Assembly: GCF_022808815.1 (NCBI RefSeq)
Contig: NZ_JAKZLC010000002.1
Location: forward strand, 62,001-126,000
DNA: 64,000 nucleotides
Source: Geothrix paludis
GTDB taxonomy: Bacteria > Acidobacteriota > Holophagae > Holophagales > Holophagaceae
Direction: 5' to 3'
Below the pieces are notes generated by a model. It did not search any database, was not told where the DNA came from, and saw nothing but the letters and a program-made list of their open reading frames with translations. Positions within the stretch are counted from its first letter, which is position 1. Each line of letters opens with the position of its first letter. The translations under genes were made by a program, and so were the position numbers. Positions 7,132 to 11,745 of the stretch are shown here, in pieces.

Positions 7132-7153
7132 TCCACCCCGTTGACAACCTGTA

Positions 7154-7223
7154 TGTCATGTTTTTCAAGGGCTTCTGGGATTGTCATGGCGACCATGACA
7201 AAAATGTTCGTAACTCGTGACAT
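7154..7223. promoter_or_regulatory. Cluster of TGTCATG/CATGACA half-sites with a perfect palindrome
   Basis: Between ruvC and the small gene at 7298 lies a palindrome at 7181-7201 with 9-bp arms (TTGTCATGG-CGA-CCATGACAA). A further TGTCATG occurs at 7154-7160 and a GTGACAT at 7217-7223. The arrangement looks like a multi-site operator for an unknown dimeric repressor. A TTGACA is present at 7141-7146, but no good -10 box follows at the right spacing. Confidence 0.45.
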
Positions 7224-7227
7224 TTCT

Positions 7228-7243
7228 TGTGATGTCTATCACT
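7228..7243. promoter_or_regulatory. CRP-like site
   Basis: TGTGA-TGTCTA-TCACT matches the CRP consensus TGTGA-N6-TCACA in 9 of 10 arm positions. It is 55-70 bp upstream of the small gene at 7298. Confidence 0.5.
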
Positions 7244-7297
7244 AGCATTGGGAATCATCAAAGACGATGATGATGTCCAGCAAGCAGTGGAGTGGCC

Positions 7298-7498
7298 ATG
7301 CACATGGATGCCAGCGTTCGACAGCACAACCCCGCCTTCTGGACCACCGCCGAACGGCTGCACGAGGTCTTCAACCAGCTCGAGTCCAAGATGAGCGCCT
7401 CCCCGCGCGGCCTCGCCGTCCTCCGCCAGGTGCAGGCCCTCGAAGCCGAGCTCGAGGCCGAGGTCATGCACCGCAGCCATCGGACGTTCGCGGCCTGA
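7298..7498 (+). CDS. Small protein of unknown function (66 aa)
   Basis: I do not recognise the family. It is a short, probably helical protein (LHEVFNQLESKM, GLAVLRQVQALEAELEAEVM), rich in Ala, Glu and Leu, without signal peptide or membrane segment. The second half could form a short coiled coil. ATG 7298 was chosen because GGAG at 7289-7292 is spaced 5 bp from it; GTG 7292 and ATG 7304 are alternatives. Good evidence that it is a real gene is its own elaborate upstream region (palindromes and a CRP-like site) and a strong hairpin terminator just after its stop. It is probably a regulated small protein. Confidence 0.6.
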   Translation: MHMDASVRQHNPAFWTTAERLHEVFNQLESKMSASPRGLAVLRQVQALEAELEAEVMHRSHRTFAA

Positions 7499-7509
7499 GG
7501 CCGGATCCT

Positions 7510-7546
7510 ACGCAGAACGGCCCGGCGATGCCGGGCCGTTCTGCGT
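7510..7546. terminator. Bidirectional hairpin terminator
   Basis: Two perfect 17-bp arms (7510-7526 and 7530-7546) enclose a 3-nt GAT loop. It lies between the convergent small gene and the M56-transglycosylase gene. There is no clear T tract on either side. Confidence 0.75.
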
Positions 7547-7557
7547 ACGGGAGAGCC

Positions 7558-9309
7558 TCACGGCTTCTTCATCTGGAAGGTGAAGGTCTTCCAGGGGGCG
7601 TCCAGCAGCACGCGGGTTTCGCCCCGCCAGCCGATGCCGGGATCCTCGCCACGGATCACCAGGCTGGCCCCGGCCTTGGAGGCATCCAGCAGAATCCTGG
7701 GCCTGGCCTCCGTCCAGGGGTCCACGGCGTAGGTTCCGTCCTGGCGCTTCTCCCCGATCTGGACGGTTCCCAGCACCCCGGTGCCCTCGGCCGGCAGGAT
7801 CTCCAGCTTCAGGTTTCCCCGGCCGCTGGCGCGAAGCTGGAGTGAGATCCGGCCTCCTCCGCCGCGGCGGATGACGCCCTGGATCTCCCCTTCCGCCAGC
7901 GGGGTCTCCGGCTGCACGGCCTTGGCGGCCAGCACGTCCATCACCAGGCTCCGGTAACGGGTGGCCTCCTCGGTGATGCGTCCCTCGTCCAGGGCCTTCT
8001 CACCGCAGTTGTAGGCCGCCACCGCCTTCTGGACCTCCCCCTGGTAGCGGTCCAGCAGGAAGCGCAGGTACTTCGCCCCTGCCGCCATGACCTGGGCGGG
8101 ATCGTCCGGGTCCGTCGCGCCGTATTTCCGGGCGGTTTCGGGCATGACCTGGAGCAGGCCCGTGGCGCCCCTGGGGCTCCTGGCGGCCGCATTGAAGCCG
8201 CTCTCCACCCAGGCCATGCTGCGGAGCAGCTGGGGATCCAGGCCCTCCCGGGCCGCCAGGGCATCCAGTTGGGCGATCACCGGGACGGGAGCCCCGATGG
8301 GCGGGAACACCGGAGCCGCCGCCCGCAGGGCGAACGCCAGGCCGGGGATCAGCAAGAGAATCAGGGCACCTCCGAGGGGGCCCCGGACAGGCTTCGGAGA
8401 AAGCAGACGTTCGATGCGCGTGAGCAGGTGTCCTCCTCGGGCCGCGAGGGCCGGGAACAGCAGGTGGGGAAGGGGCCGCTGGATGTCGTCCAGCGCGTTG
8501 AGGGCCAAAGCCAGGCGCCGCGGATCGCCGAGCATCCCGGCCGCCAGGTCATCGGCGAGTTCCTCGCGTTCGGCCCGGATCCTGGCCGAAAGCCACCAGA
8601 TGGCGGGGTGGAAGAAGAGGAGGGTTTCCGCGATGCCCTGGAGGAGGTTGGCCAGGTAGTCCAGGCGGCGCACGTGGGCCAGTTCATGGGCCAGGAGGGC
8701 CTCCAGATAACCGGGCGGGAGGCCCGTGAGCAGGGTCGCCGGCAGGAGCACCACCGGTTTCCAGAGCCCGAGGGCTACAGGCGATTGGGGCGATTGGCCC
8801 TGCCCCACCAGGAGGAGCCGGACCTTGCGCAGGATCCCCAGGCGCCGGGCCAGGGCATCGAGCGTGCCCTGCCATTCCCCGGGGGCCGGGACGCCCCTCC
8901 GCTTCCAGCTCAGGCTGAGGGCATACCCGCCGCCCAGGCGCAGGGCCATGAGGCTCGCTCCCACCGCCCAGAGAACGACCAGGATGGGCAAACGTGGCTG
9001 GAGCGCGGCCTCCAGCCGCACCAGCAGGGGTCTGGAGGTCCTGTCCGCCAGGGGCAGGAAGGCGGCCAGGTCAGCCTGGGCGACCTCGGCCACCTGGACC
9101 GGACCGACTCCCAGCGGTTCCGCACGGTGGAAGTGCCATGCCGTGCCAGCAGGCAGCCCCAGGCAGAGGGCCAGAATCAGGCCATTCATGGCATGCCGAG
9201 CGCGGCCTCGAAGAAGGAGCCCGCCCAGGGCCGCCAGGGCTACCAGCAGGCCGTCCTGCCAGAGAGCGTGGACGAGGGCCCATCCCAGGATCTGCACGGC
9301 GGCGGCCAT
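7558..9309 (-). CDS. M56 (BlaR1-type) membrane metalloprotease fused to a lytic transglycosylase domain
   Basis: This 583-residue protein begins like BlaR1/MecR1: several membrane segments (about 5-35, 42-58, 105-125, 215-240, 313-332) and a zinc protease motif HELAH at 208-212, with a downstream acidic motif EREELADD near 247-254. After the last membrane segment, where BlaR1 would carry a penicillin-sensing domain, it has a lysozyme-like SLT domain instead. This includes WVESGFN with catalytic Glu369, SPRGATGLLQVMPETARKYG at 378-397, and AAYNCGE near 431. About 120 beta-rich residues follow. It could sense or cut peptidoglycan outside and cleave a repressor inside. Its ATG shares one base with the stop of the BlaI-type gene (TGATG), so the pair is coupled. 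Confidence 0.9.
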   Translation of the reverse strand: MAAAVQILGWALVHALWQDGLLVALAALGGLLLRGRARHAMNGLILALCLGLPAGTAWHFHRAEPLGVGPVQVAEVAQADLAAFLPLADRTSRPLLVRLEAALQPRLPILVVLWAVGASLMALRLGGGYALSLSWKRRGVPAPGEWQGTLDALARRLGILRKVRLLLVGQGQSPQSPVALGLWKPVVLLPATLLTGLPPGYLEALLAHELAHVRRLDYLANLLQGIAETLLFFHPAIWWLSARIRAEREELADDLAAGMLGDPRRLALALNALDDIQRPLPHLLFPALAARGGHLLTRIERLLSPKPVRGPLGGALILLLIPGLAFALRAAAPVFPPIGAPVPVIAQLDALAAREGLDPQLLRSMAWVESGFNAAARSPRGATGLLQVMPETARKYGATDPDDPAQVMAAGAKYLRFLLDRYQGEVQKAVAAYNCGEKALDEGRITEEATRYRSLVMDVLAAKAVQPETPLAEGEIQGVIRRGGGGRISLQLRASGRGNLKLEILPAEGTGVLGTVQIGEKRQDGTYAVDPWTEARPRILLDASKAGASLVIRGEDPGIGWRGETRVLLDAPWKTFTFQMKKP

Positions 9310-9680
9310 CAGTCCTCCTTCCCCAGCAGCTCGCGGATACGGGCCTTTTCTTCGGGACTGACGGGGCCTGAGCGGAGGGCCGCGAGCACCAGGGCAGCGG
9401 CGGATCCTCCGAAGAGGCGCTGGCTCAGATCGGCCACCAGCCCCCCCTCCATGGCCGCCCGGCTGTGGGCCGGGGCGTAGACATGGCTGCGCTGCCGCTC
9501 GTCCCGGGTCACCAGGCCCTTGTCCAGCATCACCTGGAGCATCCGCAGGACGCCGGTGTAGGCGTACTCCTCCGTGAGGTTCAGGCGGGCATGCACCTCC
9601 TTCACGGTGGACGGTCCCAGGTCCCAGAGAACCCGCAGGAACTTGAGCTCCACGTCGGTCGGTTTGATCGGTCGCTTCAT
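9309..9680 (-). CDS. BlaI/MecI-family transcriptional repressor
   Basis: A 123-residue winged-helix repressor. The N-terminal part (TDVELKFLRVLWDLGPSTVKEVHARL, residues 8-33) is the typical BlaI/MecI/CopY DNA-binding region, followed by YTGVLRMLQVMLDKGLVTRDERQRSHVYAP (recognition helix and wing). The C-terminal helices mediate dimerisation and hold the site cut by the partner protease in BlaR/BlaI systems. It likely represses itself and the M56-transglycosylase gene through the palindrome at 9688-9719, which begins 8 bp upstream of its start. The start at 9680 was chosen because upstream residues of the longer frame have no family similarity and would overlie that operator. Confidence 0.92.
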   Translation of the reverse strand: MKRPIKPTDVELKFLRVLWDLGPSTVKEVHARLNLTEEYAYTGVLRMLQVMLDKGLVTRDERQRSHVYAPAHSRAAMEGGLVADLSQRLFGGSAAALVLAALRSGPVSPEEKARIRELLGKED

Positions 9681-9687
9681 GGGAATC

Positions 9688-9719
9688 CTACACAAGATGA
9701 TGTAGACCATTTTGTGTAG
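9688..9719. promoter_or_regulatory. Putative BlaI-type operator
   Basis: CTACACAAGATG and CATTTTGTGTAG are 12-bp inverted arms with one mismatch, separated by 8 bp (ATGTAGAC). TACA/TGTA half-sites are the hallmark of BlaI/MecI operators. The site sits directly upstream of the repressor start, as expected for autoregulation. Confidence 0.7.
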
Positions 9720-9846
9720 ATCGGGCCGATTGTCAAGGGCTCCCTTGAAAAGGGAACGCCGACAAGCGAGGGAAAGCACAAGCCCGGCTCTGCAGGGCTT
9801 GTGCGCGGGGGCCCGGGGGTATGCGCGCAGCGCGGAACCCCCGGAC

Positions 9847-9873
9847 AACAAAAGGGCACCCCGAAGGGTGCCC
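9847..9873 (-). terminator. Rho-independent terminator of the malic enzyme gene
   Basis: Read on the minus strand this is GGGCACCC-TTCG-GGGTGCCC followed by TTTTGTTG. It has an 8-bp perfect stem, a stable UUCG-type tetraloop and a U-rich tail, about 140 bp after the malic enzyme stop. Confidence 0.8.
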
Positions 9874-10014
9874 AATTGTCTCGGCCACTAGGATCACGGG
9901 CCGGAAGGGGCTGGCGTGAACGGTCGCCCCGTGGGAGGAAAGAGAAACTCTTCCCGACTCACAGGCTAGGCCGGCCTCCACCCCTCTCAAGAGGAAAAAC
10001 TGTCCTGGCAGCCA

Positions 10015-11745
10015 TCAGTCGATCAGGCCCGGCGCCCCGGCCCGGTAGGTGGTGTAGTGCGGCTCCCACTGGGCCTTGGTGACGATGGATTCCAGCTGGT
10101 CGTCATCGAGCAGGCGGCCGAGGCCGGCATTCCTGGCCTCGATGCCCACGGCCTTGGCCACGGCGGCGGAGACCTGGCGGATGTCCTTCATTTCCGGCAG
10201 CAGCAGGCCGGTGGCTTCCTGCGCCGGCGTCACGAAGGTGCTGATGGCCTTGCTGGCCGCCAGGAACATGCTGTCCGTGATCCGGGTGGCCTTGCAGACC
10301 AGGGCGCCGAGGCCCACGCCCGGGAAGATGTACATGTTGTTGCACTGGGAGGCCTGGAGCGTGCGGCCCTTCCAGTCCACCGGCGCGAAGGGGCTGCCCG
10401 TGGCCACCAGGCCCTTGCCGTCCGTAGCCTTCCAGACCGCCTCGGGCGAGCATTCGCACTTGTGGGTGGGATTCGAGAGCGCCAGCACGATGGGCCGCTC
10501 GGAATGCCTGGCGGTCTCCGCCAGGATGGCCTCGTCGAAGAGGTTCGGCTGGGCGGTGACGCCGATGAGCACCGTGGGATGCGCGTTGCGCACCACATCC
10601 TGGAGGCCGATGCGGGAGGGATCGTCCAGCTTCCACCCTTCCACTGAGGAGCGGCACTGGGCCAGCGGCATCTGGGGGCCCTCCAGCAGGGGGTCGCCTT
10701 CAATGAGCAGGCCCTGCATGTCCACGGCGAAGATGCGCTTGCGGGCCTCCTCGTCGGAGAGGCCTTCCGCCTTCAGCGCGGCGCGGATGTTCATGGCGAT
10801 GCCGGTGCCGGCCTGGCCCATGCCCACGATGACGTAGCGCTCGTCCTGGAAGCGGCTCTTCTTGATCCGCATGGCGGTCATCAGCGCTGCCAGGGCCGTG
10901 GACCCCGTGCCTTGGATGTCGTCGTTGAAGGAGAGGATGCGCTCGCGGTAGCGATCGAGGTTCTTGAAGGCCGTGTGCTTGGCGAAGTCCTCCCACTGGA
11001 GCAGGGCGCCGGGGAAGTTGCGCTTCACGCCGAGAACAAACTTCTCGACGAGTTCTTCGTACTCCGCGCCACGGAGCCGGGGCTTGCGGATGCCCAGGTA
11101 GAGCGGATCCTCAAGCAGTCGGGGGTTGTTGGTGCCCACGTCCAGCGTGACAGGCAGGCACACCCCCGGGTGGACACCGCCGGCGGCCACATAGAGGCTC
11201 ACCTTGCCCACGGGGATGCCCATGCCGTCGGAGCCGAGGTCGCCCAGGCCCAGGATGCGCTCGCCGTCCGTCACCACGATGAGGTTCACCTGGGGCTGGG
11301 AGAGCCCGTGGAAGATCTGGTCGATGTTCCCGATGTTCTCCGGCGTGATGTAGATGCCCCGGTAGCGCCGCTGGATGTGGCTCAGCTGGAGGCAAGCCTG
11401 GCCCACGGTGGGCGTGTAGACGATGGGCACCATCTCGTCCAGGTGGTCCACCAGGAGGCGGTAGAAGAGGACCTCGTTCCGGTCCAGGAGGCCCGACAGG
11501 TAGATGTACTTCTCCAGGTCGTCGGACTTGCGCTGGAACGCCTCGTAGGTCCGGTCCAGCTGGGATTCCAGGGTGGAGATGCCGGGCCGCAGCATGCCGT
11601 CCAGGCCCAACCCCAGGCGCTCCTCCTTGGTGAACGCCGAGGCCTTGTTCAGATGCGGATTGTTCAGCAGCTGCCGGCCCCGGACGTAGACCTCGTAGTA
11701 TTCCTCGCCCGTCAGCGGGTCGATCTTCAGCGTGAAGGTCTTCAT
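10015..11745 (-). CDS. NAD-type malic enzyme (malate dehydrogenase, decarboxylating)
   Basis: A 576-residue long-form malic enzyme, close in length to E. coli MaeA (565). It converts malate to pyruvate and CO2 with reduction of NAD(P). Visible family motifs are IVYTPTVGQACLQ (catalytic Tyr region), VVTDGERILGLGDLG, GMGIPVGKVSLYVAAGG (catalytic Lys), QWEDFAKHTAF and LSFNDDIQGTGS (divalent-metal acidic residues), the nucleotide-binding IVGMGQAGTGIA, and LALSNPTHKCECSPE. The start was set at 11745 (MKTFTLKIDP) behind an AGGGG ribosome site; a longer frame to 11811 adds 22 unlike residues. It appears to be a single-gene unit ending in the UUCG terminator. Confidence 0.95.
   Translation of the reverse strand: MKTFTLKIDPLTGEEYYEVYVRGRQLLNNPHLNKASAFTKEERLGLGLDGMLRPGISTLESQLDRTYEAFQRKSDDLEKYIYLSGLLDRNEVLFYRLLVDHLDEMVPIVYTPTVGQACLQLSHIQRRYRGIYITPENIGNIDQIFHGLSQPQVNLIVVTDGERILGLGDLGSDGMGIPVGKVSLYVAAGGVHPGVCLPVTLDVGTNNPRLLEDPLYLGIRKPRLRGAEYEELVEKFVLGVKRNFPGALLQWEDFAKHTAFKNLDRYRERILSFNDDIQGTGSTALAALMTAMRIKKSRFQDERYVIVGMGQAGTGIAMNIRAALKAEGLSDEEARKRIFAVDMQGLLIEGDPLLEGPQMPLAQCRSSVEGWKLDDPSRIGLQDVVRNAHPTVLIGVTAQPNLFDEAILAETARHSERPIVLALSNPTHKCECSPEAVWKATDGKGLVATGSPFAPVDWKGRTLQASQCNNMYIFPGVGLGALVCKATRITDSMFLAASKAISTFVTPAQEATGLLLPEMKDIRQVSAAVAKAVGIEARNAGLGRLLDDDQLESIVTKAQWEPHYTTYRAGAPGLID

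Follow-up and report, generated by a model that had tools for sequence, protein, structure and literature searches.

A lytic transglycosylase joined to a BlaR1-type M56 membrane protease and encoded beside a BlaI-type repressor in Geothrix paludis

Family-1 lytic transglycosylases (LTs) are recognized by a catalytic Glu and by the ES, GLLQ (GLxQ), and AYN motifs. In the BlaR1/MecR1 receptors, an M56 membrane protease carries a penicillin-binding (class-D-like) sensor and is paired with a repressor, BlaI or MecI, and with a palindromic operator on the promoter. The protease residues of BlaR1 are H201-E-x-x-H205, E242, D246, and R294 in the accessible portion of PMC9834060, and the sensors of BlaR1/MecR1 are described as having slow turnover in the accessible portion of PMC7593790. 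Some M23 peptidoglycan hydrolases also carry an M56 domain. In the sections of PMC9662197 that are available, M23 proteins with another catalytic domain account for less than 1% of the hits, and a part for M56 in cutting the wall is given as unproven. Those M23–M56 proteins resemble the protein presented here in joining a wall hydrolase to M56 in one chain, but their hydrolase cuts peptide, and the same sections of PMC9662197 do not discuss a repressor or an operator. A description of an M56–SLT or BlaR–LT fusion was not found in the open-licence PMC literature searched, nor in the accessible portions of PMC9662197, PMC9834060, PMC7593790, PMC13204101, PMC3660660, PMC2405808, PMC7928374, and PMC3650047. 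The M56 proteases, the GH23 LTs, and the BlaI repressors are known families; the M56–LT fusion with its own operator is undescribed, as far as the literature searches show.

The DNA analyzed here (the window) is a stretch of 64,000 nucleotides from Geothrix paludis. The features of the locus are listed below in window coordinates.

7509-7547, minus strand: strong hairpin directly after the fusion stop, a perfect 18-bp hairpin without a T tract
7558-9309, minus strand: M56–SLT fusion gene, 583 aa (ORF list, Pfam M56 and SLT, orthologues)
7561-7905, minus strand: C-terminal beta-sandwich domain, residues ~469-583 (model pLDDT 92; without a Pfam family)
7906-8307, minus strand: LT (GH23/SLT) domain, residues 335-468 by structure (Pfam span 352-441)
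8203-8205, minus strand: codon of the catalytic Glu, E369, within ESGF (motif position and alignment)
8320-8370, minus strand: predicted TM helix 4, the protease-to-LT connector, residues 314-330 (low model confidence)
8551-8991, minus strand: M56 protease domain, residues 107-253 (Pfam span)
8674-8688, minus strand: HELAH zinc motif, residues 208-212
9127-9309, minus strand: predicted TM helices 1 and 2, residues 1-61 (model helices 3-30 and 35-61; hydropathy)
9309-9680, minus strand: blaI-type repressor gene, 123 aa, whose stop shares one base with the fusion start
9688-9719, no strand assigned: predicted palindromic operator CTACACAA-N16-TTGTGTAG, 32 bp, with a further CTACA half-site within
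9709-9736, minus strand: sigma-70-like promoter TTGACA-16-CAAAAT, with the -10 box inside the operator (conserved in Geothrix)

The fusion consists of a BlaR1-type M56 membrane protease, followed by a family-1 (GH23) LT and then by a beta-sandwich. The joining of an M56 protease to an LT had been claimed in an earlier, sequence-only reading, and it was borne out by a Pfam search in which both PF05569 (M56; 70.2 bits against a cut-off of 31) and PF01464 (SLT; 79.9 bits against a cut-off of 21.3) were matched. The coordinates, HELAH at 208-212, E369, and GLLQ, as first described, were correct on re-examination; the third extracytoplasmic part, the beta-sandwich at residues ~469-583, is absent from that description. 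GLLQ is located at residue 384 and AYN at residue 432. The LT domain shares its fold and the ES, GLLQ, and AYN motifs with the family-1 enzymes (GH23: Slt, MltF, MltE, MltC), but is anchored to a signalling protease, behind its TM4.

The protein and its surroundings are like BlaR1/MecR1 and BlaI/MecI in the protease residues, the fold, the partner repressor, and the palindromic operator on the promoter. They differ in that an LT and a beta-sandwich stand where the receptors have the penicillin-binding sensor, in that the two-gene operon is without a beta-lactamase or PBP gene, and in that the operator is seen only before that operon. No penicillin-binding (transpeptidase) Pfam family was matched in the fusion at E ≤ 1, and the NCBIfam BlaR1 profile gave 39.6 bits against a cut-off of 400. 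Because the penicillin sensor is absent, the system is classed with the BlaR1–BlaI kind, yet not as a BlaR1. An input that does not need a beta-lactam, as had been suggested, is plausible for the same reason.

The AlphaFold model of the fusion was built from 23 aligned sequences and has a mean pLDDT of 77.4 and a pTM of 0.50. Helices 3-30, 35-61, 95-138, and 314-330 of the model occupy the places of TM helices. Residues 8-293 are best matched by S. aureus BlaR1 (8ext) with a Z of 18.8, an rmsd of 3.2, and 14% identity over 237 aligned residues. The predicted alpha-helical LT fold was found at residues 335-468, which match the LT structure 5mpq (Z 16.7, rmsd 2.1, 132 aligned) and MltF 4oxv (Z 16.7); this is in keeping with the lysozyme-like domain described from the letters. 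The last 115 residues, folded alone with 13 sequences, gave a confident nine-strand sandwich (pLDDT 92.1). Its structural matches are generic beta-sandwiches, the best being to Brr2 (Z 9.4) and GbpA (Z 8.5); no Pfam family was matched at E ≤ 1 and no PDB sequence at E ≤ 10. Model confidence is low at TM4 and the linker (block means 46-48), so the path of signal relay is unseen in the model. By homology with BlaR1, the catalytic face of the protease is expected to be cytoplasmic and the LT and beta-sandwich extracytoplasmic.

The repressor was identified by its match to PF03965 (BlaI; 85.9 bits against a cut-off of 22.6). Its one-base stop/start overlap with the fusion agrees with the upstream, translationally coupled BlaI-type repressor described earlier. 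The palindrome at 9688-9719 does cover the -10 hexamer of the promoter, as had been proposed, and BlaI is predicted to bind there, at its own promoter. TTGACA-16-CAAAAT is the sole sigma-70-like site in 7150-10050 (mean of shuffles, 0.1). Within Geothrix the upstream DNA has diverged, and the only shared elements are TTGAC and the (C)TACACAA / GTCTA / TTGTGTA boxes, which also keep their spacing. The hairpin at 7509-7547 possibly marks the end of the two-gene operon; the fold of 7500-7560 has a free energy of -42.6 kcal/mol (z -6.2), and the hairpin was not scored as a terminator in the scan.

The gene pair is retained elsewhere. Of 38 distinct ORF strings of the fusion, some of which are truncated copies of the same genes, 37 have blaI upstream; the contig of the remaining one begins 6 bases upstream. 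The two genes overlap by 1 or 4 bases in 30 of the 38 strings: the gap is -4 in 19, -1 in 11, and 2 to 14 bases in 4, while gaps of 251, 360, and 830 bases occur once each. The 830-base gap, in one Geothrix MAG, is filled by a secreted-looking ORF of 214 aa with a Cys-rich C-terminus (L046:3288-3932), for which no Pfam family was matched at E ≤ 1.

The conservation of the active sites was determined in 36 distinct fusions, which remained from 70 ORFs of Acidobacteriota and Myxococcota after removal of repeated copies and include many close Geothrix relatives. The equivalents of the BlaR1 protease residues (H208, E209, H212, E249, D253, and R298) are invariant in 36 of 36, and the M56 zinc site HExxH...ExxxD and the conserved Arg of the next helix are present in all of them. 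The LT residues E369, S370, S378, G381, G384, Q387, and A432-Y433-N434 are likewise identical in the 36. Among 18 Geothrix fusions, the mean pairwise identity is highest for the SLT domain (79.9%), followed by M56 with TM3 (74.8%), TM4 with the linker (60.2%), the C-terminal domain (55.6%), and TM1-2 with their loop (51.1%). The Nei–Gojobori dN/dS of the SLT domain is 0.06-0.22 in seven pairs, and dN/dS is low in both domains. The invariant LT residues, the high conservation of the SLT domain, and the low dN/dS argue for a working enzyme, and the LT domain is predicted to be catalytically active.

In the comparison of L007 with window positions 7561-7923, the C-terminal domain has a dS of 0.94 and a dN of 0.34, and the other parts have a dS of 0.21-0.29. 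From the raised dS, this domain looks to have been replaced by recombination.

Of 61 Holophagaceae genomes, no fewer than 27 have the fusion: 17 of the 31 Geothrix genomes and 10 from five further genera. Among the 30 loci of this survey, both domains share one frame in 27 (L005-L030 and L032); one of these 27, the Geothrix locus L022, has a broken frame. L022 and L047 come from one Geothrix MAG, in which the reading frame of the fusion is in three pieces through decay or assembly error. The absence of a detected fusion from 14 of the 31 Geothrix genomes, some of them drafts, indicates that the genus can do without it. In a phylum survey of 396 genomes, the fusion was present in at least 3 of 357 Acidobacteriota genomes outside Holophagaceae, from two other families, and it was present in at least 3 of 235 Myxococcota genomes. 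For 398 Pseudomonadota genomes, none of the 11 matches listed reaches the SLT domain and no SLT occurs in the M56 frames at the 10 loci fetched, in a survey that could miss a fusion split into two matches. The candidates scored per genome were 3 for Acidobacteriota, 5 for Myxococcota (E ≤ 1e-60), and 3 for Pseudomonadota (E ≤ 1e-70), and the counts are lower bounds. A search of named records gave both domains at 14 of 68 loci (L035-L047 and L090), with Geothrix as the nearest named records; the 17 genomes behind the named loci yielded one fusion, in a Polyangia genome already found. The sequence-only reading had allowed for a common, characterized architecture. The fusion is frequent in Holophagaceae and rare in the other surveys, and no description of it was found. 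A frameshift or sequencing error, which the same reading had also considered, was excluded because Geothrix genomes that were assembled separately encode full-length orthologues (58-89% identity).

In the SLT tree, the fusions of Holophagaceae form one clade and the remaining six another (2 changes). A single fusion clade is not rejected by this tree (p-AU 0.165), in which long branches are involved, and the M56 tree, from a quick search, is poorly resolved. The fusion likely arose twice, though this is not proven. A recent copy from the organism's own standalone LT (L137) was rejected as the source of the domain: the standalone LTs of Holophagaceae group, with moderate support (88/85), beside the fusions of that family and not in the manner of a recent copy.

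The extracytoplasmic tail varies. The fusions L032, L138, L139, and L140 stop soon after the SLT domain and are without the beta domain. An M56 protein of a Holophagaceae genome (G018; L132:1474-3186) groups among the fusions in the M56 tree and is without SLT. It has one clear match (E 7e-5) and one weak match (E 0.06) to the beta domain, so an M56 protein can have the beta domain without an LT; this protein suggests a swapping of extracytoplasmic domains. In the three Myxococcota fusions (L090, L150, and L151), a lipobox-like PAC cysteine occurs directly after the TM4 region, and the LT of these proteins might be lipidated or released at that residue.

The reach of the repressor was evaluated from the distribution of the operator. 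With up to 2 mismatches, one site each was detected in 20 of 47 Geothrix genomes, and a reversed control gave one match each in 3. All 19 newly fetched sites, together with the site in the window, lie ahead of blaI and of a complete or partial fusion frame; the partial frames are those of L199 (residues 1-77 before the locus end) and L193 (broken frame). Among the 31 Geothrix genomes in both surveys, all 17 that have the fusion also have the operator, which was found in none of the 14 that lack the fusion. In the G. paludis genome, the full operator with 0 mismatches and variable spacing gave no site beyond its own, and 3 mismatches gave one weak extra site against 2 control matches. A single box with 1 mismatch gave one weak extra match, near the start of contig C7, against 18 in the control. 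A wide regulon was rejected, as these searches, which would miss targets with single half-sites or different spacing, gave no extra sites above the control level. The occurrence of the operator once per genome, before the blaI–fusion operon, makes blaI and the fusion the likely regulon, and the repressor probably controls only this gene pair. The LT is then an output as well as a possible input. Of the peptidoglycan-state sensor first proposed, the M56/LT architecture, the intact active site, blaI, and the operator are retained, but no separate wall-response gene is visible.

Three more blaI–M56 pairs (L001, L002, and L003) are present in the same genome, with distinct upstream palindromes and with tails without SLT, one of which is TonB_C. 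The pairs are apparently insulated from each other. L003 is like the fusion locus in its pairing of M56 with blaI, but has the TonB_C tail rather than an LT, and its upstream palindrome differs.

A closed, autoregulated two-gene module, in which the state of the wall sets the amount of membrane-tethered LT, is given an even chance as the function of this locus. BlaI would repress its own promoter through the overlapping palindrome. A change in the engagement of the tail with peptidoglycan, caused for example by free substrate or blocked strands, would be relayed by TM4 to the M56 protease, which, by analogy with BlaR1, would inactivate BlaI. Derepression would then supply more BlaI and fusion only, as no operator was found other than the one ahead of the blaI–fusion operon. 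The LT would be both the probe and the product of the loop. A pure sensor is no better a fit than a self-limiting or self-amplifying loop of LT supply. Against the closed loop, retained catalysis makes a steady binding signal odd, and the beta-sandwich rather than the LT could be the sensor.

A more specific form of the closed module is put forward tentatively. An active LT would report through M56 and BlaI that it has met cuttable peptidoglycan and would switch its own genes only, and the fusion would be a one-protein homeostat of LT dose with, probably, two or more origins, in Holophagaceae and in a second clade of other Acidobacteriota and Myxococcota.

It is unlikely that the LT is only cargo, with the beta-sandwich or another input in control of the protease, or with the LT freed by cleavage near TM4, and its dose set by an unrelated signal. 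L132, which keeps the M56 and beta-domain matches without SLT, is consistent with such an arrangement, but L032, L138, L139, and L140 are fusions without the beta domain. The LT could also be purely a sensor that binds glycan strands and signals without need for turnover, like the slow-deacylating sensor of BlaR1. It holds the position of that sensor after TM4, and the slow turnover of the BlaR1/MecR1 sensors (accessible portion of PMC7593790) is a precedent. A mere binder would, however, be expected to lose some of the checked active-site residues, which are invariant in 36 of 36 fusions within the best conserved domain, and a pure sensor would be expected to drive other genes, whereas no separate output gene was seen in the operator searches; this explanation is regarded as quite improbable. 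A two-signal circuit, in which anhydro-muropeptides cut by the LT are recycled and coactivate BlaI in parallel with the protease, has a precedent in Bacillus licheniformis, where a peptidoglycan dipeptide is a coactivator acting on BlaI/MecI (accessible portion of PMC3305447), and is considered very doubtful here. The joining of two genes by a frameshift or assembly error is next to impossible, given the orthologues in many separate assemblies, the low dN/dS of both domains, the invariant active sites, and the presence of both domains in one frame also in other Acidobacteriota and Myxococcota.

How bacteria match potentially lethal wall hydrolases to wall synthesis is an open question. An LT joined to a protease of the repressor-inactivating type, with one operator found per genome, offers a testable answer in a two-gene system. 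The fusion also suggests that, beyond antibiotic resistance, the BlaR1 chassis can carry different extracytoplasmic parts, among them an enzyme that looks active. In this soil bacterium, the position of the fusion beside its own repressor suggests that a cell-wall enzyme controls how much of itself is made.
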